Source of the DNA: Chloroflexota bacterium
GTDB lineage: Bacteria; Chloroflexota; Anaerolineae; Promineifilales; Promineifilaceae
Length of the DNA: 8,887 bases
Direction of reading: 5' to 3'
Assembly (NCBI GenBank): GCA_008501785.1
Contig: QQUD01000202.1
Coordinates: 1 to 8,887 of the forward strand
The notes below the pieces were generated by a model. It saw only the letters and a program-made list of their open reading frames with translations, was not told the DNA's origin and made no database searches. Positions 1 through 8,887 of the stretch are shown here, piece after piece. How positions within the stretch are numbered: position 1 is the stretch's first letter; every line of letters begins with the position of its first letter. The translations under genes were made by a program, and so were the position numbers.

Positions 1-909
1 AAATTCGGGCCGACCTCGTAAAAAGTCAGAGATTGACATGGCACGTTTTCCGGCAAGCTGGATTTTGTGGAGCTGCAAACGGCCGTTTCCCGTTTCCACA
101 ACGGCCGTTTCCCCATCACCACATACCAACCCGACCAAACCATCTCCAGCTGTCGCCCCAACAGGACGTGCCTCAATGATTTTCAGCCCTTTACCCTGCC
201 AGGTTGTCGTCGCACCCGGCCATGGCGTCATGGCGCGAATACGGCGGTCTAAGGCATTGGCTGATTCTTGCCAGTCTAAACGGCCGTCTTCCTTACTAAT
301 CATCGGTGCATACGTTGATTGTTCGTCGTTTTGCGGGATGGGGGTGAGACGGCCGTTTACAATCTCATCCAAATACCGCCCCATCATCTCTGCACCTAAG
401 TCGGCTAACTTGTCGTGAAGGGTAACGGCCGTTTCATCATCTACAATCGCAACCGATTCCTTCACATACATGGGACCTGTATCCAGTCCCACATCCATCT
501 TCATCAATGTAATGCCCGTTTCGGCATCACCAGCCAAAATCGCATGTTGAATCGGGGAAGCACCGCGCCAGCGCGGCAGCAGCGAAGCATGCACATTAAG
601 ACAGCCCAGCGGCGGTAAATCGAGCACATGGGGACGTAAAATTTGCCCAAATGCAGCTACGATAATCAAATCTGGCTGCCACTCTCGCAAAGGGGTTGCC
701 GATTCTTCTTTTCGCAGCGATTTTGGTTGAAACAGAGGAATATCGGCATCTAGGGCAACTTGTTTGATGGGAGACGGCCGTAACTGTCGGCCACGCCCCG
801 CTGGTCTATCTGGCTGCGTCACCACACCAACCACATTTTGTGTTTCAATTACCTTTTTTAGACTGGGCACAGCAAAATCTGGCGTACCCATAAACACAAT
901 TCGACTCAT
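1..909 (-). CDS. fmt: Methionyl-tRNA formyltransferase, C-terminus cut by window edge
   Basis: Formylates Met-tRNAfMet with 10-formyl-tetrahydrofolate for translation initiation in the cytoplasm. The 303 visible codons start MSRIVFMGTPDFAVPSL, the family's usual N-terminus. The formyl-transferase Rossmann-type domain (about residues 1-185) carries the signature NVHASLLPRWRG with N105 and H107, and GLDTG with D143; these match the catalytic Asn/His/Asp triad of the family. The C-terminal tRNA-binding domain follows (about 205-300, with TPWPGA) and ends at FLRGRPEF, so only a few residues are missing compared with the roughly 310-residue norm. The ATG at 909 gives the canonical start. There is no clear SD before it, and a TAGAAT box lies only 6 bases upstream, so a leaderless transcript is possible. 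The gene holds six copies of the octamer ACGGCCGT. Its upstream neighbour is divergent. Confidence 0.96.
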   Translation of the reverse strand, partial: MSRIVFMGTPDFAVPSLKKVIETQNVVGVVTQPDRPAGRGRQLRPSPIKQVALDADIPLFQPKSLRKEESATPLREWQPDLIIVAAFGQILRPHVLDLPPLGCLNVHASLLPRWRGASPIQHAILAGDAETGITLMKMDVGLDTGPMYVKESVAIVDDETAVTLHDKLADLGAEMMGRYLDEIVNGRLTPIPQNDEQSTYAPMISKEDGRLDWQESANALDRRIRAMTPWPGATTTWQGKGLKIIEARPVGATAGDGLVGLVCGDGETAVVETGNGRLQLHKIQLAGKRAMSISDFLRGRPEF

Positions 910-915
910 GTGGGC

Positions 916-943
916 ATTCTAACCTTAAAATTTGCGTTTGCAA
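916..943 (-). promoter_or_regulatory. Candidate fmt promoter (leaderless)
   Basis: On the minus strand TTGCAA (943-938), a 16-bp spacer and TAGAAT (921-916) resemble a sigma-70 promoter. Transcription would begin at or next to the fmt ATG at 909. No AGGAGG-like site lies in the usual SD window, which fits a leaderless message. The -35 box is only a partial consensus match, so this is tentative. Confidence 0.35.
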
Positions 944-948
944 ACTTA

Positions 949-977
949 TTGACGGATTAGCCTCAGGACTTTACAAT
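949..977 (+). promoter_or_regulatory. Sigma-70 promoter of the DUF4870-like gene
   Basis: TTGACG (949-954), a 17-bp spacer and TACAAT (972-977) closely match the -35/-10 consensus. The start point would be near 984, leaving a leader of about 125 nt before the ATG at 1109. The -10 box is embedded in the inverted repeat TTACAA-TG-TTGTAA. Confidence 0.7.
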
Positions 978-984
978 GTTGTAA
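971..984. promoter_or_regulatory. Candidate operator, inverted repeat over the -10 box
   Basis: TTACAA-TG-TTGTAA is a perfect 6+6 inverted repeat that covers the -10 hexamer and the expected start point of the promoter at 949-977. A dimeric repressor bound here would block transcription. No regulator gene in the window points to it, so the function is inferred from position and symmetry only. Confidence 0.4.
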
Positions 985-1108
985 GTTGGCCAATCTGGTA
1001 AATAATATTACTATAAAATGTTATCGGTGGATTGGCCTAAGGCTTTTTTCAGCATACAATAATGTTTGCCCATTTCAGAAAAAGCCAAACATAAAAATTG
1101 GAGGCACA

Positions 1109-1531
1109 ATGACTGAAGAATTTGACAGCTTTGATGATTCTAACATGAATGACGATCAAGAGGACAAGTTCGAAGAATCTCTTCCCGTTGAAGAGATGAG
1201 CAGTGGCTTTGATGAAGATATTACGGACGATGACAAGTTGTGGGCATTTTTAGCCTATGTGTTCACACCGATAGTTCCAATTATTCTCATGTTGATGGAA
1301 GATAAGAAGGAACGGCCGTTTCTCAAAGCTCACAATGCACAGGCATTGGCCTGGGGACTTATTAACCTGGTTGGCGGCACGATTTTGAGTACCGTCCTGT
1401 TTTTCTGTTTTGGTTTACCCTCCATTCTCATTTGGGGTGTAGGCGTTTATTGGGGATGGCAGGCATATCAGGGAGAATATGTTACAATACCCGTTATTAC
1501 GGATTTCGTAAAAGGACAAGGATGGGCCTAA
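1109..1531 (+). CDS. DUF4870/Tic20-like small membrane protein
   Basis: A 140-residue integral membrane protein of unknown function. About 45 N-terminal residues are very acidic and probably disordered. They are followed by DDKLWAFLAYVFTPIVPI, then a short loop MEDKKERPFLKAHNAQALAW and two more hydrophobic stretches (about residues 90-127). The pattern of a first helix, a charged loop with a conserved His in KAHN, and a hydrophobic pair is that of DUF4870 (Tic20-like) proteins. I recognise the family by pattern, not by search. The ATG at 1109 is chosen because GGAGG (1100-1104) precedes it by 4 bases. An upstream in-frame ATG at 986 has no SD and would add a non-conserved tail. The gene is monocistronic, with a promoter at 949-977 and a terminator at 1650-1680. 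One ACGGCCGT octamer lies inside, read as E-R-P-F. Confidence 0.85.
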   Translation: MTEEFDSFDDSNMNDDQEDKFEESLPVEEMSSGFDEDITDDDKLWAFLAYVFTPIVPIILMLMEDKKERPFLKAHNAQALAWGLINLVGGTILSTVLFFCFGLPSILIWGVGVYWGWQAYQGEYVTIPVITDFVKGQGWA

Positions 1532-1586
1532 TATAGATTGGCAAGAAGCTTTTTCATACACATGACAAAGTCTGACAATCTGTTTA

Positions 1587-1607
1587 AGTATTGCGCAGCG
1601 CAATACT
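1587..1607. repeat. Perfect 10-bp inverted repeat downstream of the DUF4870-like gene
   Basis: AGTATTGCGC (1587-1596) and GCGCAATACT (1598-1607) are perfect reverse complements around a single central A. In RNA this could form an 8-bp hairpin with a 5-nt loop. No T-run follows, so it is not a standard terminator. It may be an RNA 3'-end stabiliser or a DNA-binding site. Confidence 0.55.
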
Positions 1608-1649
1608 AGCCCGTCTTGACCCCAAGGTTCTTCACTAGCTTAAACGGAG

Positions 1650-1680
1650 GAGCGCATCAATTGGATGCGCTCTTTCGTTT
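1650..1680 (+). terminator. Rho-independent terminator of the DUF4870-like gene
   Basis: GAGCGCATC (1650-1658), loop AATTG, and GATGCGCTC (1664-1672) form a perfect 9-bp stem followed by TTTCGTTTTAT. Upstream AAACG (1642-1646) can also pair with CGTTT (1676-1680) and extend the stem. It lies about 120 bases after the stop codon of the gene at 1109-1531. Confidence 0.8.
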
Positions 1681-1684
1681 TATA

Positions 1685-1713
1685 TTGACACCCTGCTCAA
1701 TCAAATTTACAAT
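1685..1713 (+). promoter_or_regulatory. Near-consensus sigma-70 promoter of the DUF4013-like gene
   Basis: TTGACA (1685-1690), a 17-bp spacer and TACAAT (1708-1713) make an almost perfect promoter. The start point would be near 1720, giving a leader of about 80 nt. That leader contains the palindrome GCGAATATTCGC (1747-1758), a possible operator or hairpin. Confidence 0.8.
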
Positions 1714-1801
1714 CAATTTTGGATTGCATCAAGCAAAAATTATAGTGCGAATATTCGCGGGGTAGTCACAAGTATTCATTATTCAACAGGAGGAATTTAT
1801 T

Positions 1802-1954
1802 ATGGATATTTCAAAAGCATTTAGTTATGTATTCAAAGACGAACAATGGGCCGGTAAAATCGGTATTGGCGCACTCATTTCCCTTTTATCATTCTTAATT
1901 ATCCCAATCCCGCTGCTATCAGGATGGATGGTTGGCATCACCCGTAATGTATAA
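1802..1954 (+). pseudogene. DUF4013-like membrane protein, 5' part before a frameshift
   Basis: This reads MDISKAFSYVFKDEQW and continues through one hydrophobic helix to WMVGITRNV, then stops at TAA 1952-1954 (50 residues). It is the typical N-terminus of DUF4013 proteins, in which the helix ending in RNV is directly followed by a G-E-E-x-P-x-P-x-W-x-D segment. That segment is found here in another frame at 1954-1989 (INGEEHPMPGWEDL). The reading frame therefore shifts between 1949 and 1956: two extra bases (TA in GTATAATT) or one missing base explain it. A strong SD AGGAGG (1788-1793) stands 8 bases before the ATG, and the promoter at 1685-1713 is intact, so the lesion is recent, a sequencing error, or tolerated. 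Confidence 0.75.
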
Positions 1955-1974
1955 TTAATGGGGAAGAACACCCC

Positions 1975-2526
1975 ATGCCAGGTTGGGAAGATTTAGGCAC
2001 ACTGTTTCGAGATGGGCTTTCTATAATTGCGGCTTCATTCGTTTACTCACTGCCTTTTTTGTTGCTTGTCTGCATTGGCACTGTAGCAACAGCTGGTTTC
2101 GGCAGCTTAACCGAAATGAGCGAGGAAGCAGCAGCAGCGGGCATCTTTGCCACCTTTGGGCTAACTTTTTGCCTCAGTGCTATCTTCATACTTGCATTAT
2201 TCTTCATCAGTCCGGCGATTGTCATTCAATATGTACGTACCGACGAATTAGCGGCTTGCTTCCGCTTTAGCGAAATCATTGATATCGTCCGCGAAAATGC
2301 AGGGGACATTGCCATTGCTGCATTTACCCCATTTTTAGCAAGCATTGTCATCAGTTCAGTGCTTGGTATATTCGCCATGATCCCCATCATTGGCTGGTGC
2401 GGTGGTCCGATCATTGGCATCGCCGTTGGCCCCTATCTCTCAGCTATCGTTGGTCATTTGTACGGTCAAATTGCTGCCAAAATTGACGGTGAAAAATCAC
2501 CAGATGACATCGCTTTTGATCTGTAA
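1975..2526 (+). CDS. DUF4013-like membrane protein, 3' part after the frameshift
   Basis: A hydrophobic, multi-helix protein segment of 183 residues starting at MPGWEDLGTLFRDGLSII, plus an upstream in-frame extension INGEEHP that has no start codon. Hydrophobic stretches lie at about residues 15-45, 53-86 and 113-165, with GWCGGPIIGIAVGPYLSAIVGH near the end. This matches the body of DUF4013 membrane proteins of unknown function, roughly 230-240 residues when joined to the 50 codons at 1802-1954. If the frameshift is real, this part could be made only by reinitiation at the ATG at 1975, which has a weak GGGGAAG (1960-1966) 8 bases upstream. It is followed by a 12-bp hairpin and a terminator (2631-2672). 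Function unknown. Confidence 0.75.
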   Translation: MPGWEDLGTLFRDGLSIIAASFVYSLPFLLLVCIGTVATAGFGSLTEMSEEAAAAGIFATFGLTFCLSAIFILALFFISPAIVIQYVRTDELAACFRFSEIIDIVRENAGDIAIAAFTPFLASIVISSVLGIFAMIPIIGWCGGPIIGIAVGPYLSAIVGHLYGQIAAKIDGEKSPDDIAFDL

Positions 2527-2558
2527 GCAGACTCGAAGCGTTTGACAGTCAAAAATAA

Positions 2559-2595
2559 TTTCCCTGGACAGGCCCTTAAGATTTGTCCAGGGAAA
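2559..2595. repeat. 12-bp perfect inverted repeat after the DUF4013-like gene
   Basis: TTTCCCTGGACA (2559-2570) and TGTCCAGGGAAA (2584-2595) are exact reverse complements with a 13-nt loop. An outer AAATAAT / ATTATTT pair (2553-2559, 2601-2607) can extend it. No U-run follows directly, so it is more likely an mRNA 3'-end hairpin than the main terminator. Confidence 0.6.
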
Positions 2596-2630
2596 GTGGC
2601 ATTATTTGGCACCATTTTTCATTGATTTAG

Positions 2631-2672
2631 CATTTCATTTACAGGTATTGTAGGTGAAATGTTTTTTATTTT
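2631..2672 (+). terminator. Rho-independent terminator of the DUF4013-like gene
   Basis: CATTTCATTTACA (2631-2643) pairs with TGTAGGTGAAATG (2649-2661) over 13 positions, two of them G-U, with loop GGTAT. The run TTTTTTATTTT (2662-2672) follows immediately. The stem is AT-rich but long, and the T-tract is strong. Confidence 0.7.
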
Positions 2673-2823
2673 GCCAATACCTTCGCCAATTTCAAAAAAT
2701 AAGGATGTCATTCCTGCGGAGGCAGGAATCTATCTTCATGGTACATGAGTGGATTCCTGCCTCCGCGGGAATGACACTTACGAATTTTTGCTAAAATTCA
2801 TTTTGGCGAAGGTATTGTTTTGC
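2669..2823. mobile_element. MITE-like element with REP-like core (143 bp plus 6-bp target duplication)
   Basis: Terminal inverted repeats CAATACCTTCGCCAA (2675-2689) and TTGGCGAAGGTATTG (2803-2817) are exact 15-mers. The direct repeat TTTTGC flanks them on both sides (2669-2674 and 2818-2823), as expected for a target-site duplication. Inside are two 25-bp arms in opposite orientation (2706-2730 and 2752-2776) that differ at one position. Each arm is itself a palindrome of the type ATTCCTGC-GGAG-GCAGGAAT. The centre holds TCATG-GTA-CATGA. There is no room for a transposase, so it would move in trans. It sits between the terminator of the DUF4013-like gene and the SD of the next gene, so it replaces or supplies that gene's upstream region. 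The core resembles the widespread ATTCC...GGAAT repeats (dRS3/REP type). Confidence 0.72.
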
Positions 2824-2836
2824 AGGAATGGTTTAT

Positions 2837-3196
2837 ATGTTAGGAAATATCGTTTACCTGTTGGGCGTGGCTCTGTTGTTTACACATGAACTGGATGCGA
2901 TAAAGCATCATGAGTGGCGCCTTTTTGGTTTTCTGAATCCTTTAGGTGACAAGATGGCCTATTGGGTTTTTACGCTGGCCCATGTGCCTTTGTTTTTCTT
3001 GTTTTTGTGGATGATGGCCTATCCCCGGCTTAATTTTGAAATCGCTGTTGATCTGTTTCTGATCATTCACGTTGGTCTGCATTACCTGTTTCGCAACCAT
3101 CCAAAGTATGAATTTAGCGACTGGTTTTCGCATGGCATTATTGGTGCGGCAGGCATCATGGGAGCAATTCATTTGTTATTGCTAACGTTGGCCTGA
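2837..3196 (+). CDS. Small four-helix membrane protein, DUF6713-like
   Basis: A 119-residue hydrophobic protein with about four membrane helices (roughly residues 3-16, 39-61, 68-82 and 98-118). The segment FTHELDAIKHHEWRLF near the N-terminus and IHVGLHYLFRNHPKYEF in the second half carry several conserved-looking His, Glu and Asp residues at helix ends, as in proteins annotated DUF6713. The family name is from memory and should be confirmed. The ATG at 2837 is preferred because AGGA (2824-2827) is 9 bases away; the ATG at 2828 abuts that SD. The gene begins only 14 bases after the TSD of the MITE-like element, and no clear promoter is visible between them, so expression may depend on the element or on read-through. 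Function unknown. Confidence 0.75.
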   Translation: MLGNIVYLLGVALLFTHELDAIKHHEWRLFGFLNPLGDKMAYWVFTLAHVPLFFLFLWMMAYPRLNFEIAVDLFLIIHVGLHYLFRNHPKYEFSDWFSHGIIGAAGIMGAIHLLLLTLA

Positions 3197-3229
3197 CAAA
3201 AATTTTTTGCAGCGCTGGTTTATTATTAA

Positions 3230-3272
3230 GCTGATGCGCCCGTTTTCCAAAAGCGCGTATCAGCGTTTGTTT
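3230..3272 (+). terminator. Terminator-like hairpin after the DUF6713-like gene
   Basis: GCTGAT-GCGC (3230-3239) pairs with GCGC-GT-ATCAGC (3253-3264), leaving a 2-nt bulge, and is followed by GTTTGTTT. It lies 34 bases after the stop codon. The short T-tract makes it a moderate candidate. Confidence 0.5.
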
Positions 3273-3287
3273 CATACAAAAGCATCG

Positions 3288-3335
3288 CCCCAAAATACAA
3301 TTCGTCTCTCATACATGACGCTTGTGGGGTTTTTT
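3288..3335 (+). terminator. Second terminator-like hairpin
   Basis: CCCC (3288-3291) and ACAA (3297-3300) pair with TTGT-GGGG (3322-3329) around a 21-nt loop, and six T residues (3330-3335) follow. The stem has a 5-nt bulge, so this is tentative. It could be a backup to the hairpin at 3230-3272. Confidence 0.4.
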
Positions 3336-3339
3336 AGAG

Positions 3340-3465
3340 ATGCCTGGTTTTCGCTCAAAACTTTGGCTTCGCAATAAGGAGACTGGTGAGTTTGGAGGCA
3401 TTTATGAATGGGACACCGAAGAAGATGCACACAATGCGGACTCAACTGTGCTAATCCGTATTTAA
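3340..3465 (+). pseudogene. Remnant of a YdhR-like (dimeric alpha-beta barrel) monooxygenase gene
   Basis: A 41-codon open stretch reads MPGFRSKLWLRNKETGEF, then GGIYEWDTEEDAHNADST, ending at TAA. The string PGF-x-SK-x-WL-x-x-x-x-x-T-x-x-x-GG-x-Y-x-WD is the central hallmark of YdhR-type / antibiotic-biosynthesis-monooxygenase-like proteins of about 100 residues. The first half of such a protein and its C-terminal strand are absent: the frame is closed upstream by TGA at 3316-3318, and after the match the sequence ends at once. A T-rich terminator-like hairpin lies where the missing N-terminal part would be. No SD or promoter supports the ATG at 3340. I read it as a decayed fragment; a real 41-residue protein is less likely. 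Confidence 0.5.
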
Positions 3466-3491
3466 ATTCATCAACTCAAGGAATATGAAGA

Positions 3492-3527
3492 GGAGCCTGT
3501 CTTCAAATAGTGGGGAAGACAGGCTCC
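3492..3527 (-). terminator. Strong 13-bp hairpin ending the sigma operon
   Basis: GGAGCCTGTCTTC (3492-3504) and GAAGACAGGCTCC (3515-3527) are perfect reverse complements with a 10-nt loop. On the minus strand the hairpin follows the last gene of the sigma operon by about 30 bases and leads into the moderately T-rich TCTTCATATTCCTTG. It is the only plausible terminator for that operon in the window. Confidence 0.7.
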
Positions 3528-3558
3528 GTGTAGAGGGGAGGGAAGAGGAAGTTTTAGC

Positions 3559-4617
3559 TTATTCTTCAGTAATTGTTAGTTCATCGTCGGGTAGGGTGTC
3601 GAGAACGGCCGTTATCTTATCATCATCCGGTTCCACAATCGTAGCCATCGGATATTCTCGTGTACCAAACTTGGTCAGAGCCACGCCACCCAAGCCAACG
3701 CACATGGCAAAGAACGCTACAATGCCTTCGCCATAAATAAATGGAATCGCGCCAAGCAAACCGAATATAAAGGTCAACACCATTGTGCCAATGGCTGCGG
3801 TTGCGGGTTGGCTTAATTGCATGCCAAACTTTGTTGTCAAATATTCACCAGCCATACGGCCTACAACAAACCATCCAAACATAGCCCCACCAAACAAACC
3901 CAATGCTAATGCAATCATGATCGGGAAGCCAAGAATCCCAATGCAGACAAAGGTGAGTATGATTGAAATCGGAACCAGCAGAACAATCAAAAATGGAACC
4001 GCTAGGCCGGTCAGGAACCCAACCGTGCCGCTGACTGCGGGTTTGGCATTCACTGTGTCTTGAACTCGCTGCATTTGCTGCGGGAATATTGAAGCTGCGA
4101 CAAAAGCAAAGATACCAAACAATAGCGTTTGACCAATTGCTTGAGCCAAATTTAGCCAGAAATAATTACCGCTATCTATGGGTGGTGTCGTCGTTTCTGT
4201 ACCAACTGTGTCCGGAATTTCGTTGAGTAAATTGCTGACAAAGGGAGGTAAATTCTCAGCAACACCTGATATATTGACGCAGTTGACATGTGAATCAGAT
4301 GTACCGGTGAGTTCGCCATTCATGACGACACAATCGCCACGAATAACGGCCGTATCCGCCAAATCCAAATCCCCATTCATCACGACCAAATCGCCGCGAA
4401 TCGTACCAGAAATGACAGCATGGCCATTCCAGACAACCACATCCCCTTCAATCTCACCACCTTCTTCAACTTCTAAATCATCGTCAAAGATAGTGACATC
4501 ACCAGGAATCGAGTCATCGCTACCGACAACCCGGTCTGCCAAAGGGTCCGCCAACACAACACCAGTTGGCACCAGTATGGCAAGTAAAATAAATAAAATC
4601 GTAAGTGTTCGTTTCAT
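3559..4617 (-). CDS. Secreted/membrane protein with bactofilin-like beta-helix repeat, third gene of the sigma operon
   Basis: A 352-residue protein with a clear signal peptide (MKRTLTILFILLAILV...VLA, about 23 residues). An exported acidic region with repeated turns follows: IEGDVVVWNG at 56, IRGDLVVMNG at 73 and IRGDCVVMNG at 92. This resembles the short parallel beta-helix rungs of polymer-forming (bactofilin-like) proteins. After a Pro/Thr-rich linker (about 120-150) come several membrane helices (about 152-176, 196-225, 229-253 and 266-310). The C-terminal tail is acidic. The ATG at 4617 is chosen because it begins the signal peptide and has GGGAG (4630-4626) 8 bases upstream; longer in-frame starts would bury the signal peptide and overlap the anti-sigma gene more. 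It lies 4 bases after the anti-sigma stop and is probably co-transcribed. Likely an envelope protein; exact role unknown. Confidence 0.82.
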   Translation of the reverse strand: MKRTLTILFILLAILVPTGVVLADPLADRVVGSDDSIPGDVTIFDDDLEVEEGGEIEGDVVVWNGHAVISGTIRGDLVVMNGDLDLADTAVIRGDCVVMNGELTGTSDSHVNCVNISGVAENLPPFVSNLLNEIPDTVGTETTTPPIDSGNYFWLNLAQAIGQTLLFGIFAFVAASIFPQQMQRVQDTVNAKPAVSGTVGFLTGLAVPFLIVLLVPISIILTFVCIGILGFPIMIALALGLFGGAMFGWFVVGRMAGEYLTTKFGMQLSQPATAAIGTMVLTFIFGLLGAIPFIYGEGIVAFFAMCVGLGGVALTKFGTREYPMATIVEPDDDKITAVLDTLPDDELTITEE

Positions 4618-4621
4618 CAGC

Positions 4622-5188
4622 CTAGCTCCCATTCGAAATTTGATCACCCTGGCCCACAAGCTGTCGAAGAACCCCACTCCAGACAAAAACCACGCCAACC
4701 ATCACCAGCAGCAACCCTAAAACAAATGGCTGCTGCGCTACAAATTCACCAATACTCGTAAACAACGCCTGCACAACGGCTCCAGCAACCTGCATACTGT
4801 TGTAAACAACTTGCCCAAATCCACCGAGCAGCGCCGGTTCATTTAATACGGTTCCCAGGCGGTTTATCACCACCAGGCCCAGCAAAATAGGCAGCACACC
4901 GCTCATCAACAGTAGCACGTACACCACACTAATCACTCGAATTCTAGCTCGGTGATTAGGCAGTCGTGCTACTGTGCGGGCGGTGAAATCAGCCGCTGGT
5001 TGCAGCATCGGCGTACTGCGAAACAGTGTATCCACCGTTTGCAACGCCTGCCATTCCCGCATCATTACCGGACGTGTCTGCAAGTGAGATTCCAATTCAG
5101 CATGATCTTCTGCTGAAAGCTCACCATCGAGCGCGTCCATCATCAATTCATAAATTCTATCTTCTTGCTCCATCTGCATGTACCCCAT
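4622..5188 (-). CDS. Anti-sigma-factor-like membrane protein without zinc ligands
   Basis: Lies directly after an ECF sigma gene and has the matching layout: a cytoplasmic N-terminal helical domain (about residues 6-82) with YELMMDALDGELSAEDHAEL, then membrane helices at about 84-108 and 153-175. The N-terminal part aligns by eye with the anti-sigma (ZAS) fold. At the place where H-x-x-x-C-x-x-C binds zinc it reads H35-L-Q-T-R-P-V-M, and the whole 188-residue protein contains no cysteine. It would therefore bind its sigma without zinc. An amphipathic, Gly/Ala/Val-rich stretch (117-150) between the helices probably lies outside or along the membrane. Start choice is uncertain: the ATG at 5173 (MEQEDR) has GGGG 9 bases upstream and is the best alternative to 5188. 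Role inferred from position and layout. Confidence 0.8.
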   Translation of the reverse strand: MGYMQMEQEDRIYELMMDALDGELSAEDHAELESHLQTRPVMMREWQALQTVDTLFRSTPMLQPAADFTARTVARLPNHRARIRVISVVYVLLLMSGVLPILLGLVVINRLGTVLNEPALLGGFGQVVYNSMQVAGAVVQALFTSIGEFVAQQPFVLGLLLVMVGVVFVWSGVLRQLVGQGDQISNGS

Positions 5189-5233
5189 CAGGATTAGATG
5201 TTTTGTTTCCTATAACGTTTTATTCCAATTGCT

Positions 5234-5258
5234 GTGGCCGGTCTCCTGACCGAGCCAC
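5234..5258. repeat. Hairpin between sigma and anti-sigma genes
   Basis: GTGGC-CGGTC (5234-5243), loop TCCT, GACCG-A-GCCAC (5248-5258) form a 10-bp stem with one bulged base. On the transcribed minus strand the loop reads AGGA. It lies in the 85-base gap between the two genes and has no T-run, so it may set the ratio of sigma to anti-sigma by pausing, processing or translation control; a dispersed repeat is the alternative. Confidence 0.5.
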
Positions 5259-5273
5259 CTGAGTGCATTCTCA

Positions 5274-5858
5274 TTAACTCGCCACCGCATTTTCATACGA
5301 TGGGTTCAAATTCATGGCCATGCCAACTTCTGCCAATTGTTTACGTGCGCGGAATAATCTTGATTTAATCGCGCTCACGGTCGTATCCATCATTTCTGCA
5401 ATTTCTTCGTATGACAATTCATGCCAATAGCGCAAAACCACAGCTTGCCGATAATCTGCCGGTAATTCTTGCAGCAGCGTCTGCACCATATCTTGCTGTT
5501 CACCTTCAAGCGTTTTTGCTTCCGGGCCTTTGCGTCTGTCGGACATCAAAGCCGGGTGCGGTGCTAAAGGTTCATCAATCGATAGCAAAATTGCGCGACG
5601 CTTCCGAATCTGGTCAATACAATAATTTGATGTAATTGAAAGCAGCCAGGTACTAAACTTATGATTCGGATTGTAGCTATCTAGCCGCGTATAAGCGCGA
5701 ATAAATGCTTCCTGCGCTGCTTCTTCAGCTTCACCAGAGTTGTTCAGCATTCGGTATGCCAGATTGTAAACCGGCGATTGGTATGCCTGTATTATTTTTC
5801 CGAAGGCTTCTTTATCGCCTTCCCTCGCTTGTTCTAGCCAAACCTGTTCTTCGTTCAA
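5274..5858 (-). CDS. ECF-type RNA polymerase sigma factor (RpoE/SigW-like)
   Basis: A 194-residue alternative sigma factor. Region 2 (about residues 12-85) contains YQSPVYNLAYRMLNNSGEAEEAAQEAFIRAY and FSTWLLSITSNYCIDQIRKR, the -10-recognising part. Region 4 (about 120-175) reads LPADYRQAVVLRYWHELSYEEIA, then TVSAIKSRLFRARKQL, the -35-binding helix-turn-helix. There is no region 1 or 3, as usual in ECF factors. The start is a TTG at 5858: AGGAG (5872-5868) stands 9 bases before it, the protein then begins at the conserved LNEEQVWLEQA, and the ECF promoter at 5910-5885 would put the transcript start near 5878. Longer in-frame readings up to 6074 would cross that promoter. It is followed by its probable anti-sigma factor, so it most likely controls an envelope-stress response and its own synthesis. 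Confidence 0.93.
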   Translation of the reverse strand: MNEEQVWLEQAREGDKEAFGKIIQAYQSPVYNLAYRMLNNSGEAEEAAQEAFIRAYTRLDSYNPNHKFSTWLLSITSNYCIDQIRKRRAILLSIDEPLAPHPALMSDRRKGPEAKTLEGEQQDMVQTLLQELPADYRQAVVLRYWHELSYEEIAEMMDTTVSAIKSRLFRARKQLAEVGMAMNLNPSYENAVAS

Positions 5859-5884
5859 CTTATTAATCTCCTGACAACCCTTAT

Positions 5885-5910
5885 TACGCAGTTTAGCAGG
5901 AAAAGTTTCA
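5885..5910 (-). promoter_or_regulatory. ECF-type autoregulatory promoter
   Basis: On the minus strand TGAAAC (5910-5905), exactly 16 bp, then CGTA (5888-5885). This equals the established SigW-type ECF promoter TGAAAC-N16-CGTA. The start would be near 5878, giving a leader of about 20 nt that contains the AGGAG site of the sigma gene. Position and match imply the sigma factor activates its own operon. Confidence 0.72.
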
Positions 5911-5966
5911 GTTGCACGCAAAGTTGGTGAAATCGACGGTTTGTGGGATGATCGATTTCGAGAATT

Positions 5967-5976
5967 CACACGTGTG
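5967..5976. promoter_or_regulatory. Candidate operator palindrome between divergent promoters
   Basis: CACACGTGTG is a perfect 10-bp palindrome 6 bases upstream of the -35 box of the thrS promoter and about 60 bases from the ECF promoter. Overlapping GTCAC (5976-5980) and GTGAC (5993-5997) also flank that -35 box. A regulator site is plausible but unproven. Confidence 0.3.
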
Positions 5977-5982
5977 TCACCC

Positions 5983-6010
5983 TTGACATTACGTGACCCT
6001 ATTTTATAAT
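5983..6010 (+). promoter_or_regulatory. Consensus sigma-70 promoter of the thrS leader
   Basis: TTGACA (5983-5988), a 16-bp spacer and TATAAT (6005-6010) are both perfect hexamers. Transcription would begin near 6017, about 390 bases before the thrS ATG, which matches the length of a T-box leader. Confidence 0.85.
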
Positions 6011-6016
6011 GGATTC

Positions 6017-6383
6017 CACTTAACATGGTCATATACCCTAATACGTAGAGTGGGACATGTAGTTGCACAATCACTTCAAGAGAGTATTCGGCCTAGTGTT
6101 CTTTAGTCAAGCATTGATAAATCAAGTTGATTCGGAACACTTGAGCTGTAAGCCAATACAAGTTAACTGTGCAGCAATACCCCCCACGAGTGACGTTCTG
6201 AACGGTGATAGCAAACCACGCGTTTGCTATTTTGGGGCAGACTGTTGGTCTGCCCTCTTTTTAAGAAAGTTCGGGTGGCTCCGTTAACGGCCGTAACGAA
6301 GAGTAACCTCAAACAGGTTATCGAATTTGGGTGGAACCGCGGTGCCATCGCCCCAAAATGTGGGTGATGGCATTTTTTATTTT
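6017..6383 (+). promoter_or_regulatory. T-box riboswitch leader (threonine) upstream of thrS
   Basis: The leader senses uncharged tRNA-Thr and lets transcription continue into thrS. Stem I is suggested by AATCACTT pairing with AAG(T)TGATT and by the AGAGAG motif near 6082. The candidate specifier region GGAACACTT (6134-6142) contains the Thr codons ACA (6137-6139) and ACT (6139-6141). Further hairpins are ATAGCAAAC/GTTTGCTAT (6208-6230), GGGCAGAC/GTCTGCCC (6235-6255) and TAACCT/AGGTTA (6304-6320). The diagnostic T-box GGGTGGAACCGCGG lies at 6329-6342. In the antiterminator TTTGGG (6326-6331) pairs with CCCAAA (6352-6357) and GCG (6339-6341) with CGC (6349-6351), leaving the 7-nt bulge TGGAACC, whose TGGA binds the tRNA 3' end. 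The competing terminator overlaps it. Confidence 0.92.
6344..6383 (+). terminator. T-box-controlled intrinsic terminator
   Basis: GCCATCGCCC (6344-6353) pairs with GGGTGATGGC (6362-6371) over 10 positions including one G-U, with an 8-nt loop, followed by ATTTTTTATTTT. Its 5' arm shares bases 6349-6357 with the antiterminator, so the two are mutually exclusive. Confidence 0.9.
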
Positions 6384-6403
6384 AAAAGGTATCTGGAGGC
6401 ACT

Positions 6404-8233
6404 ATGTCAGAGGAAAATAATATCCCGTACGAGCAATCCAACTTGTACAAAATTCGGCACTCCGCCGCGCATGTGATGGCAGAGGCTGTGCTTGAATTTT
6501 ATCCTGAAGCGAAATTGGCGATTGGTCCGCCGATTGAAGATGGTTTTTACTATGATTTCGATCTGGGAAAAGACGAAAATGGCAAGCCACTCACCTTTTC
6601 GCCAGAAGAAATCGAAAATATCGAAAAGACGATGAAACAACTGCTCAAGAAAAATGCAAAATTTGAGCAGTCCACCATGACTGTTGAAGAAGCACTCGAT
6701 TTCTTCAAAGATCAGCCATTCAAACTGGAGTTGATCGCAAATCTGGCAGAAGGTAAATTAGACGAAAACGGCAACCCGACCAGCGAACCTGTGTCTGATG
6801 TTGGCATTTACAAACATCGTGAATTTGTAGACCTATGTCGGGGGCCGCACGTTGCATTTACCAAAAAGGTAAAAGCAAATGCCGTCAAGCTGCTGCGCAC
6901 CGGTGGCGCATACTGGCGTGGAGATGAAAACAAGCCGCAGCTACAGCGCATTTATGGCACAGCCTGGAACAATCGCATCGAGCTAGATGAATATATGAAG
7001 CTGCTTGAAGAAGCCAAAGCTCGCGATCATCGTCGCCTGGGCAAACAGCTTAGCTTGTTCCATATTTCGCAGTTGGTTGGGTCTGGTTTGCCGCTGTGGC
7101 TGCCAAAGGGGACCATTTTACGTGAAACGTTGGAAGGCTTTTTACGACAGGCACAGGTTGAGCGTGGTTATTTGCCGGTTATTACACCACATATTGGCAA
7201 GCTGGACCTGTACATCAAAAGTGGGCACTATCCTTATTACAAAGATAGTCAGTACACGCCGATTGATGTCGATGATGAAAAGTTCATGCTGCGGCCGATG
7301 AACTGTCCGCACCACATTGAGATTTACAAAAGCGAACCGCGCAGCTATCGTGATTTGCCACTGCGACTGGCCGAATTCGGCACGGTTTATCGCTACGAGC
7401 AAAGTGGTGAGCTTAATGGCCTGACGCGCGTCCGTGGCTTCACGGTAGATGATTCGCATCTGTTTGTGACGCCAGACCAGCTAGAAGAAGAGTTTATTGG
7501 CGTCGTCAGCCTGATTCAACATGTATTCGAGACAATGGGTTTCTCAGACTTCCGCGCACGACTTGGAGTCAATGATCCGAACAGCGACAAATACGCTGGT
7601 GCGCCGGAAATGTGGGAAAAAGGCATTGCGGCAATTAAAAAAGCGGCTGACAAAGTGGGCATGAATTACACGATTGAAGAAGGTGAAGCAGCTTTCTACG
7701 GACCCAAACTGGACTTCATTTTCCGTGATGTGTTGAAGCGGGAATGGCAGTTGGGTACGGTGCAGGTAGACTTTTTGCTGCCAGAGCGGTTTGAGTTGGA
7801 GTATACGGCCGTTGACAGTCAAAAATACCAACCCGTCATGATCCACCGCGCCCCGTTCGGCAGCATGGAACGGTTTGTCGGTATCCTGATTGAGCATTTC
7901 AACGGCGCGTTCCCGCTGTGGCTGGCTCCGGTGCAGGTAATGATGATTCCAATTGCAGACCGACACATTGCGTATGCAAACGAGGTTGCGACCAAACTGC
8001 GATCTGCTGGTATACGAGTTGAAGTTGACTCCGCTGGTGAACGAATGAACAAGAAGATTCGCAATGCGCAGTTGCAGAAGATTCCGTACATGTTGGTGGT
8101 TGGGGATAAGGAAGCGGAGGAAACGGCCGTTGCCGTTCGCACTCGTGAAAATGAAAATCGGGGCGCTGTTTCTGTCGCCGATTTCATCACCAACACGACC
8201 ACCTTGATCACAACCAAATCGATGGAGCTTTGA
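6404..8233 (+). CDS. thrS: Threonyl-tRNA synthetase (copy 1, T-box controlled, no TGS domain)
   Basis: Charges tRNA-Thr with threonine and clears mischarged Ser-tRNA-Thr. The 609 residues begin directly with the editing domain: HSAAH (H19, H23) and CRGPH (C145, H149) form its active site. The N-terminal TGS domain of about 60 residues seen in the E. coli enzyme is absent. The class II catalytic core (about 210-500) shows MNCPHH with C301, motif 2 near YRYEQSGELNGLTRVRGF, VDDSH with H352, and motif 3 MIHRAPFGSMERF with H481; C301, H352 and H481 are the three zinc ligands. The anticodon-binding domain starts at FPLWLAPVQVMMIPI (about 503). GGAGG (6395-6399) stands 4 bases before the ATG. It is transcribed through the T-box leader and ended by the terminator at 8267-8298. 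Two ACGGCCGT octamers lie inside, both read T-A-V. A second copy follows. Confidence 0.97.
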   Translation: MSEENNIPYEQSNLYKIRHSAAHVMAEAVLEFYPEAKLAIGPPIEDGFYYDFDLGKDENGKPLTFSPEEIENIEKTMKQLLKKNAKFEQSTMTVEEALDFFKDQPFKLELIANLAEGKLDENGNPTSEPVSDVGIYKHREFVDLCRGPHVAFTKKVKANAVKLLRTGGAYWRGDENKPQLQRIYGTAWNNRIELDEYMKLLEEAKARDHRRLGKQLSLFHISQLVGSGLPLWLPKGTILRETLEGFLRQAQVERGYLPVITPHIGKLDLYIKSGHYPYYKDSQYTPIDVDDEKFMLRPMNCPHHIEIYKSEPRSYRDLPLRLAEFGTVYRYEQSGELNGLTRVRGFTVDDSHLFVTPDQLEEEFIGVVSLIQHVFETMGFSDFRARLGVNDPNSDKYAGAPEMWEKGIAAIKKAADKVGMNYTIEEGEAAFYGPKLDFIFRDVLKREWQLGTVQVDFLLPERFELEYTAVDSQKYQPVMIHRAPFGSMERFVGILIEHFNGAFPLWLAPVQVMMIPIADRHIAYANEVATKLRSAGIRVEVDSAGERMNKKIRNAQLQKIPYMLVVGDKEAEETAVAVRTRENENRGAVSVADFITNTTTLITTKSMEL

Positions 8234-8360: not shown

Positions 8361-8389
8361 GACGATGAGAATAGATTTTGGAGGTTACG

Positions 8390-8887
8390 ATGTTAAATCA
8401 AAATGATGTAGCTTATGAAGATTCAAAATTGTATCGAATTCGGCACACGGCTGCGCATGTGTTGGCGCAGGCGGTGCTTGAGCTGTATCCAAATACCAAG
8501 TTGGGCATTGGGCCGCCCATTGAAAATGGCTTTTACTATGATTTCGACTTAGGAGTTGATGGATATGGCAATCGTCGCACGTTTTCGCCAGATGATTTAG
8601 TGAAGCTGGAAAAACGAATGCGCCAAATTGCAACAGGCAATCATGCTTTGCACTATCGAGAAGTAAGTGCAGAGGAAGCCCAAGCCATTTTTCACGATCA
8701 GCCATACAAATTGGAACTAATCGAGGGTTTGACGAAAGGTAATGTGGATGAATATGGTAATAAATCTGTGGAACCGGTAGTGATTAGCACGTATAAACAC
8801 GATGCGTTTGAAGATTTGTGCCGGGGACCGCATGTGGCGCACACGGGCCAAATCCCAGTGTCCGGATTGAAGCTGATGAGTGTTGCT
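8390..8887 (+). CDS. thrS2: Second threonyl-tRNA synthetase (copy 2), cut by window edge
   Basis: The 166 visible codons encode a paralogue of the preceding gene. By hand alignment without gaps 40 of the first 60 residues are identical (for example IGPPIENGFYYDFDLG). The editing-site residues H19, H23 (HTAAH), C144 and H148 (CRGPH) are all kept, and again no TGS domain precedes them. The catalytic and anticodon domains lie beyond the window, so it is not known whether it is intact. The ATG at 8390 has GGAGG (8380-8384) 5 bases upstream. Unlike copy 1 it has no T-box: the 156-base gap holds only a terminator and a large palindrome, and no clear promoter. It may be a constitutive backup, a stress or inhibitor-resistant isoform, or a specialised paralogue; the sequence seen does not decide. 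The symbol marks only the second copy. Confidence 0.93.
   Translation, partial: MLNQNDVAYEDSKLYRIRHTAAHVLAQAVLELYPNTKLGIGPPIENGFYYDFDLGVDGYGNRRTFSPDDLVKLEKRMRQIATGNHALHYREVSAEEAQAIFHDQPYKLELIEGLTKGNVDEYGNKSVEPVVISTYKHDAFEDLCRGPHVAHTGQIPVSGLKLMSVA

Follow-up and report, generated by a model that had tools for sequence, protein, structure and literature searches.

The 8,887-bp stretch of DNA considered here (the window; contig QQUD01000202.1 of the Chloroflexota assembly GCA_008501785.1) carries 12 exact copies of the octamer ACGGCCGT, a perfect palindrome, in fmt, a DUF4870-like gene, a beta-helix gene, thrS and the T-box leader of thrS; the second and third of these gene names are labels given by a first-pass annotation of the sequence. 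Six copies lie in fmt, which is on the minus strand and truncated by the window end; the frame is x-G-R at 79..86, 280..287 and 349..356, T-A-V at 101..108 and 425..432, and x-R-P at 774..781. The copy in the DUF4870-like gene (1312..1319) is again x-R-P, the two in the beta-helix gene on the minus strand (3605..3612 and 4346..4353) and the two in thrS (7805..7812 and 8123..8130) are T-A-V, and the copy at 6287..6294 is non-coding, within the leader. The positions reported by the first-pass annotation were all exact, as was its tally of frames (T-A-V six times, x-G-R three, x-R-P two, one non-coding), and its remark that several copies extend to a longer form holds for the six that read AACGGCCGTT (79, 101, 425, 1312, 3605 and 8123). 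Dinucleotide shuffling gave a mean of 0.09 copies and a maximum of one in 200 shuffles, and an order-2 Markov model predicted 0.13; the octamer ranks first among the 8-mers of the window. Twelve of the 13 CGGCCG hexamers in the window sit within ACGGCCGT, and just two single-mismatch versions of the octamer are present.

The thrS gene (609 aa, 6404..8233, plus strand) served to find relatives. Its T-box leader (6050..6358, plus strand, the 5' edge being set by the stretch searched) holds the sole non-coding octamer and was recognized as such in the first-pass annotation, an assignment that agrees with a match to RF00230 (E 1.7e-10) but falls short of the curated standard; the score was 51.1 bits against a gathering cut-off of 93, and a search at that cut-off gave no Rfam match. 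A second, diverged thrS-like gene (8378-8887) follows thrS in tandem downstream of this one leader, and weaker thrS matches adjoining thrS were also seen in relatives. The metagenome-assembled genomes (MAGs) matched by the window thrS bear the titles Anaerolineae or Chloroflexi bacterium; among full-length matches the highest identity is 86% (L001, genome G001), and a partial match reaches 88% (L008). At aligned positions G001 has the same octamer as the window at 280, 774 and 1312 (where G002 reads TCGGCCGT), reads GCGGCCGT at 425 and lacks the octamer at 349; the non-coding copy at 6287 is identical in G001, G002 and G005, and the two copies in thrS are kept in none of the eight relatives aligned there.

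Genome-wide counts were made in the genomes of these relatives. In 10 of them ACGGCCGT occurs 6,777-15,176 times per genome, compared to 46-392 times for a reversed-pattern control, so that counts lie far above expectation and the enrichment is not confined to the window, contrary to both refuting conditions named in the first-pass annotation; the shuffles, the Markov model and the reversed-pattern control together rule out chance or base composition as its cause. Among 298 genomes drawn at the level of the class, 10 had more than 300 sites/Mb and all 10 belong to our list of 56 genomes from one order of Anaerolineae (Chloroflexota). Within that order 27 genomes have 991-2,102 ACGGCCGT per Mb, which is one site per about 480-1,010 bp; another three lie at 421-514 per Mb and the other 26 below 200. 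In an rpoB tree of 50 of the 56 genomes (rpoB was unseen in five and a fragment from G008 was left out; the tree was built by a quick method with a midpoint root and has some long branches), 23 ACGGCCGT-rich rows fall within one group of 32 (support 98). The remaining members of that group are seven genomes forming a poor subclade, G310 with its intermediate density, and G316, in which the octamer has clearly been lost.

Other genomes of the order have exchanged the palindrome. In sequence samples ranging from a few kb up to 20 kb, TCGGCCGA replaces ACGGCCGT in G307 and G104, and GCGGCCGC is the iterated palindrome of G191. G315 has swapped to TGCCGGCA, which has a different core and is present in 3,665 copies genome-wide (a figure taken from the control column of the order-level count) versus 14 copies of ACGGCCGT. 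These four genomes fall in a separate rpoB group of 12 (support 89). Six more genomes (G161, G289, G331-333 and G214) show a roughly 4-9 fold excess of the hexamer CGGCCG, the flanks of which are mixed. One-base deviants of ACGGCCGT, counted in a pool of 26 genomes that includes some close relatives, are found at 1.2-3.9 times expectation when the change is at position 1 or 8, at 0.5-0.8 times for positions 2-3 and at 0.7-1.05 times for position 4. On the sequence criteria set out by Elhai (2015), ACGGCCGT qualifies as a highly iterated palindrome (HIP): it is over-represented by its rank among palindromes in the relatives and among all 8-mers in the window, relatives low in it have a replacement palindrome, and deviations concentrate at the first and last base. 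It is not HIP1 itself, as its sequence differs from GCGATCGC and its phylum is not cyanobacterial; the HIP1-like label of the first-pass annotation is nevertheless supported by density, palindromy, clade restriction, outer-base deviations and lineage-specific alternative palindromes. As a separate matter, some palindromes are strongly avoided in pooled HIP-rich loci of 26 genomes, ACCGCGGT occurring 0 times against 16.5 expected and ACAGCTGT once against 10.9.

Close relatives seldom lose the sites. Compared to control octamers of equal base composition, ACGGCCGT was kept in 42/42 versus 422/577 cases from G003 to G007 (95% identity), 36/37 versus 181/415 from G009 to G004 (87%), 33/34 versus 137/371 from G003 to G004 (85.5%), 25/31 versus 123/430 from G001 to G002 (81%) and 7/17 versus 36/249 from G003 to G306 (76%). 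The octamer is found at 1.41/kb in coding and 1.07/kb in non-coding sequence, and the coding copies in the pooled loci are read as T-A-V (361), x-G-R (314) and x-R-P (145). With one genome taken from each of 14 lineages, T-A-V occurs at 3.65 times its dipeptide expectation in rich genomes and is encoded by the octamer in 316 of 328 cases, whereas in poor genomes the ratio is 0.92 and the octamer encodes 13 of 40; in genomes with TCGGCCGA it is S-A-E (3.87 times) and S-A-D (1.97 times) that are in excess, 67 of 75 being encoded by TCGGCCGA. The DNA site therefore shapes protein sequence and not the reverse, which rejects codon or amino-acid preference as the cause and bears out the claim of the first-pass annotation that protein sequence or codon bias does not account for the octamer. 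Flank preferences are seen at about -4/-3, +3/+4 and -1/+1 in coding and in 83 non-coding copies, and pairs of sites less than 20 bp apart are scarce (5 versus 28 expected). Inverted-repeat or hairpin flanks were rejected: over positions 1-15, bases at -k and +k are complementary beyond composition clearly at k=1 only (z 6.1), the next best being k=10 (z 2.3).

A second property of the sites is a gradient of base composition around them. On average, the strand that reads 5' to 3' into an intact octamer is G-rich and C-poor, with dyad symmetry on the two strands and a reach of about 300 bp. At third codon positions GC skew on the 5' side falls from +0.61 (3-4 bp) to 0.38 (9-14), 0.31 (21-30), 0.17 (41-60), 0.14 (81-120), 0.10 (201-300) and 0.04 (601-1000). 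At a distance of 21-30 bp the base frequencies are roughly G 0.39, C 0.21, A 0.18 and T 0.22, and they return to near equality at 601-1000 bp; toward the site G rises, C and A fall and T is nearly unchanged. Pooled over 9-60 bp, the skew is 0.211±0.007 at 1,427 sites (overlapping loci were excluded from this set and from the substitution set below, and the T-A-V counts also used a reduced set) and 0.214 with one genome per lineage, compared to -0.008 to +0.015 when sites are shifted by 1.5-3 kb. It is positive in 23/23 ACGGCCGT genomes with at least eight sites (range 0.10-0.57; the rich genomes G322, G321 and G008 are not shown and G320 was unsampled) and is 0.40±0.09 at the window's own 12 sites. 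Genomes with an alternative octamer show it as well: 0.32 and 0.26 for TCGGCCGA, 0.30 for GCGGCCGC and 0.21 for TGCCGGCA, so that G315 retained the gradient (24 sites) when the core of its palindrome changed.

Beyond the first few bases no such skew was found at GCCGGC, TGGCCA or the one-off octamers TCGGCCGT and ACGGCCGA (the control-octamer sets, like the codon sets and those searched for clustered regularly interspaced short palindromic repeats (CRISPR), contain partly overlapping stretches), or at 9-60 bp from 434 GATC sites of E. coli. The controls are not perfectly flat: GGCC, a set that includes HIP sites, gives 0.13 at 5-8 bp and 0.09 at 9-14 bp; GCCGGC more than 300 bp from a HIP turns to -0.09 at 201-400 bp; TCGGCCGT (40 sites) gives 0.35±0.17 at 3-4 bp and 0.16±0.10 at 9-14 bp, then nothing clear; and E. 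coli GATC gives 0.34 at 3-4 bp and nothing past 8 bp. Genomes enriched only for the hexamer have skews near zero (G214 0.007, G331 0.045±0.041, G077 0.006, G298 -0.031), with exceptions in G161 (0.085±0.016), G289 (0.043±0.026) and G332 (0.146±0.057, 19 sites). We suggest that the gradient is a new footprint, measurable from sequence, which points to strand processing at the octamer.

Substitutions near the sites are biased in the matching direction. These were polarized on 15 overlapping triplets drawn mostly from two loci, so that shared loci make the p values optimistic. Within 100 bp of a site, C>N plus A>N changes numbered 469/2473 and G>N plus T>N changes 625/4386 (odds ratio (OR) 1.41, p 4e-7); the asymmetry fades to an OR of 1.14 at 101-300 bp and 1.00 beyond, and most of it is carried by A>G versus T>C (OR 1.87, p 1.5e-6). 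Such biased recent substitutions argue that the strand process is still going on. A local change in mutation rate is not seen in comparisons within genes; the raw substitution rate is lower near sites, but because this disappears within genes it is a gene-level effect. In the portion of PMC7615360 available to us, resected DNA at human meiotic breaks is described as showing a strand asymmetry of C>N and A>N, the exposed strand being the forward strand to the left of the break. The asymmetry at the octamer has the same direction. By analogy, the exposed strand would be the one with its 3' end at the octamer, as after 5'-to-3' resection.

The octamer is also found at high density on mobile DNA. 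Virus contigs of IMG/VR were scanned for two octamers within 30 bp, a filter that selects for density, and 80 listed stretches were read. Among these, at least 16 (14 contigs) have more than 0.8 sites/kb at more than 10 times expectation, and at least five (four contigs) have 2.8-3.7 ACGGCCGT per kb, which is above any host-genome average; in the virus-like pieces L260, L297, L256 and L248 the figure is 3.0-3.7/kb. From these four pieces 20 proteins were scanned. L260 gave matches to an anti-repressor, an endolysin-type domain, ParA and FtsK, and L248 to a DnaC-like loader and, weakly, a replication initiator, and thus at least two of the pieces look like phages or phage-plasmids; L297 gave a weak regulator and otherwise unknowns, and L256 gave no match. 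The skew pooled over the 16 listed stretches is 0.17 at 3-8 bp, 0.071±0.025 at 9-30 bp and about 0 beyond, so mobile DNA can carry the octamer nearly free of a gradient. This suggests that foreign DNA benefits from the octamer, and that the gradient accrues later, on the chromosome. A search for CRISPR arrays that might link hosts to viruses found none in the sampled genome stretches.

The data establish abundance throughout the genome, clade restriction, palindrome switching, conservation, a spread that costs proteins, the skew gradient and the matching substitution asymmetry; the cut, the direction of resection, the protein and the benefit discussed next are inferred. We favor, tentatively and at somewhat less than even confidence, the possibility that ACGGCCGT is the HIP of one Anaerolineae order and acts as a genome-wide, bidirectional DNA-processing site, most likely a Chi-like one. 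A protein would recognize the intact octamer, and a strand would be nicked or broken there, or the processing of an end redirected. Removal of a strand, probably in the 5'-to-3' direction, would leave the strand with its 3' end at the site single-stranded, and damage to or refilling of that exposed strand would leave it with fewer C and A and more G, an effect fading over about 300 bp. Action in both directions would follow from the palindrome. The likeliest use would be as a mark of self DNA that directs repair or recombination. For a Chi-type role in protecting DNA from a RecBCD/AddAB-type nuclease and switching that enzyme, the polarity of the skew and the abundance in virus-like DNA are indirect hints only. 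The first-pass annotation had offered methylation, repair, chromosome organization and uptake as roles and chosen none; strand processing of the repair or recombination type is now favored and a universal C-methyltransferase disfavored. What is new relative to that annotation is the skew gradient with its substitution bias, and the finding that no C-methyltransferase family searched is universal while a HIP-rich subclade has lost MutL motifs without having MutH.

This last observation bears on a different idea, namely that the HIP is a nick site for strand discrimination in mismatch repair, where a MutH-like nickase cuts the new strand and excision directed by MutS and MutL begins. We regard it as unlikely, yet it has several attractions. 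The spacing of sites in rich genomes matches the one for which Elhai argued, and 5'-to-3' excision from a nick would yield the observed polarity of the skew. MutH-bearing bacteria are not known to have the metal motif in their MutL. Among the 56 genomes 49 had a MutL_C match, and all 49 were read; 38 retain the DQHA(X)2E(X)4E motif together with the CPHGRP-type motif of the C terminus, whereas in 11 (G001, G002, G004, G006, G007, G009, G306, G317, G318, G320 and G321) both motifs are changed or missing. Ten of the latter fall in one rpoB group of 11 (support 98), whose eleventh member, G003, has no MutL_C match; G320 is absent from the tree. To this group belong the genomes whose thrS, compared over its full length, is most like that of the window. 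All 11 MutLs read in the subclade nearest the window, each from a HIP-rich genome, lack motifs that the other 38 keep. Where MutH is missing, bacteria normally rely on the MutL endonuclease domain for nicking (PMC2965676). Its loss here, in an order lacking MutH, looks as though a different nuclease did the nicking, and it counts in favor of the processing site proposed above as well. MutH, on the other hand, was found in 0/56 genomes (an E. coli control was positive). By MutL state the 27 HIP-rich genomes divide into 11 changed, 14 intact and two unseen (G003 and G008), and the 14 still have their sites; HIP-poor G316, G311 and G312 also have an intact MutL_C. Nor is divergence lower near sites, and the higher density of sites on some virus-like contigs than in hosts is left unexplained. 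It is mainly because some mobile elements carry an excess of the octamer that we prefer Chi-like self-marking to a mismatch-repair nick.

Elhai's model for HIP1 seems improbable here. In that model an orphan methyltransferase methylates the palindrome, and repair directed by the methyl groups drives sequences toward it like a ratchet. The model draws on the report, in the accessible part of PMC4390886, that every cyanobacterial genome with such sequences has at least one putative matching methyltransferase. Deviations concentrate at positions 1 and 8 as they do in HIP1, and the required G-meC step is present within GGCC; the A/T flank is left unexplained, since CGGCCG already has G-C. The first-pass annotation had proposed looking for a matching enzyme, and family members do occur in some genomes, but no family searched is universal. 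The C5-methyltransferase family PF00145 (34 genomes searched overall) is absent from seven of the 15 tested genomes above 900 sites/Mb (G001, G006, G008, G009, G177, G204 and G224), which rejects it as a universal partner. PF01555 (N4/N6 family) is found in 52/56 genomes and is likewise unsupported, since HIP-rich G001, G006, G008 and G320 have no match to it stronger than E 1e-9. The D12 methyltransferase (45/56) has the wrong distribution: three HIP-poor genomes have it (G316, G311 and G312), and in HIP-rich G308 and G321 none was found. These comparisons cover family presence in MAGs, whose gaps may conceal single genes, although rpoB was missed in only 5/56 genomes. Very-short-patch repair was rejected as a driver, Vsr being found in only 8/56 genomes. 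Separately, G009, G004, G003, G253 and G319 each have 19-27 PF01555 matches, a large restriction-modification load.

We consider it slightly more improbable still that the HIP is a signal for DNA uptake or a recombination preference, spreading by biased transformation. Such a signal would account for a drive that costs proteins, for the rarity of site loss and for the depletion of one-offs at positions 2-3. DNA uptake sequences and uptake signal sequences occur in thousands of copies and spread into coding sequence, and the octamer resembles them in both respects. It differs from them in being palindromic, as no uptake sequence known to us is, and an uptake signal alone gives no 300-bp skew. 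Least likely of all is that the HIP is bound by a nucleoid or partition protein, present in abundance, whose footprint extends to GG..A-ACGGCCGT-T..CC. The flank preferences and the scarcity of closely spaced copies would suit this, but such a footprint would not be expected to span 200-300 bp or to affect the substitution spectrum out to 100 bp, and the gradient is almost absent around the octamers of virus-like contigs.

Several observations weigh against a Chi-like processing site as well: (i) no nuclease, binding protein or modification was tied to the octamer in this analysis; (ii) of the 27 rich genomes, 14 keep both MutL motifs, and their loss elsewhere is a single event on the tree, which cannot prove a link between MutL loss and the HIP; (iii) genomes with intact MutL are skewed too (G323 0.21, G253 0.25, G143 0.24); (iv) CGGCCG is enriched without clear skew in G214, G331, G077 and G298, so that enrichment and processing are separable; (v) C>T (OR 1.13), C>G (1.21) and C>A (1.57) are in the right direction but individually non-significant; (vi) third-position divergence within genes is not raised near sites (observed/expected 0.96-1.05), so there is no mutation hotspot; (vii) the octamer has no orientation, while the Chi sites we know of are non-palindromic and biased in orientation; and (viii) the skew at HIP1 is weak. 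With regard to this last point, HIP1 was examined on plasmids of three cyanobacteria, 850 kb in all (a further 50 kb from Gloeothece PCC 7822 were excluded, HIP1 not being among its frequent palindromes). At 554 sites the skew had the same sign, 0.051±0.013 at 9-60 bp and 0.041±0.008 at 9-200 bp, and cyanobacterial GATC more than 300 bp from HIP1 gave about 0. Three shifted controls gave 0.003-0.005 at 9-200 bp; because the fourth reached 0.026±0.008, the HIP1 skew is suggestive only.

A broader proposal, which we put forward as doubtful, is that a single undescribed system, a palindromic and bidirectional mark of self DNA, underlies both the Chloroflexota HIPs and HIP1, whether by convergence or by common possession. 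At such a mark a site-specific nuclease would open a strand for 5'-to-3' resection. The system would guide recombination or mismatch repair throughout the genome, could be retargeted to a new palindrome and borrowed by mobile elements, and would have made the MutL endonuclease dispensable in one subclade. To our knowledge HIP1 has stood for some three decades as an unexplained feature of cyanobacteria. Comparative power is gained from a second phylum whose palindrome differs, with four variants of the octamer and a clear loss in at least one case. The skew gradient, for its part, needs nothing but a genome sequence to be measured and can separate processed sites from merely abundant ones. Among the matches listed from the open-licence PMC literature there was no HIP in Chloroflexota and no skew around HIP1; the word 'Chloroflex' is absent from Elhai 2015, and the accessible parts of PMC12772301 and PMC4687349 hold nothing on the octamer.

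There are partial precedents for such a site among known systems. As regards the GATC sites of Dam and MutH, the octamer is likewise a frequent palindrome, and E. coli MutL lacks the endonuclease motifs, as do the MutLs of the subclade nearest the window; it is unlike GATC in that MutH was not found in these genomes and E. coli GATC shows no skew at 9-60 bp. At Chi, the single strand lies on the 5' side of the signal, where its 3' end is located. The octamer is comparable in that it is a short over-represented signal whose exposed strand would have that polarity, but as a palindrome it has no orientation. The Chi sites of RecBCD and AddAB named in PMC5101192 are GCTGGTGG in E. coli and AGCGG in B. 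subtilis. The closest resemblance is to the cyanobacterial HIPs, for which density, palindromy, clade restriction, outer-base deviation and alternative palindromes are described in the accessible part of PMC4390886. Like HIP1 and the alternative HIPs TCGATCGA, GGGATCCC and GGCGCC, ACGGCCGT is a GC-rich palindrome present at about 500-2,500/Mb, with a fixed hexamer core whose flank pair is altered in relatives (as between HIP1 and TCGATCGA), loss or replacement in single lineages and deviations at the outer bases. It is unlike HIP1 in sequence, in phylum and in having no universal C-methyltransferase among the families searched (PF00145 and PF01555), and the skew at the Chloroflexota octamer is about four times stronger than that at HIP1.

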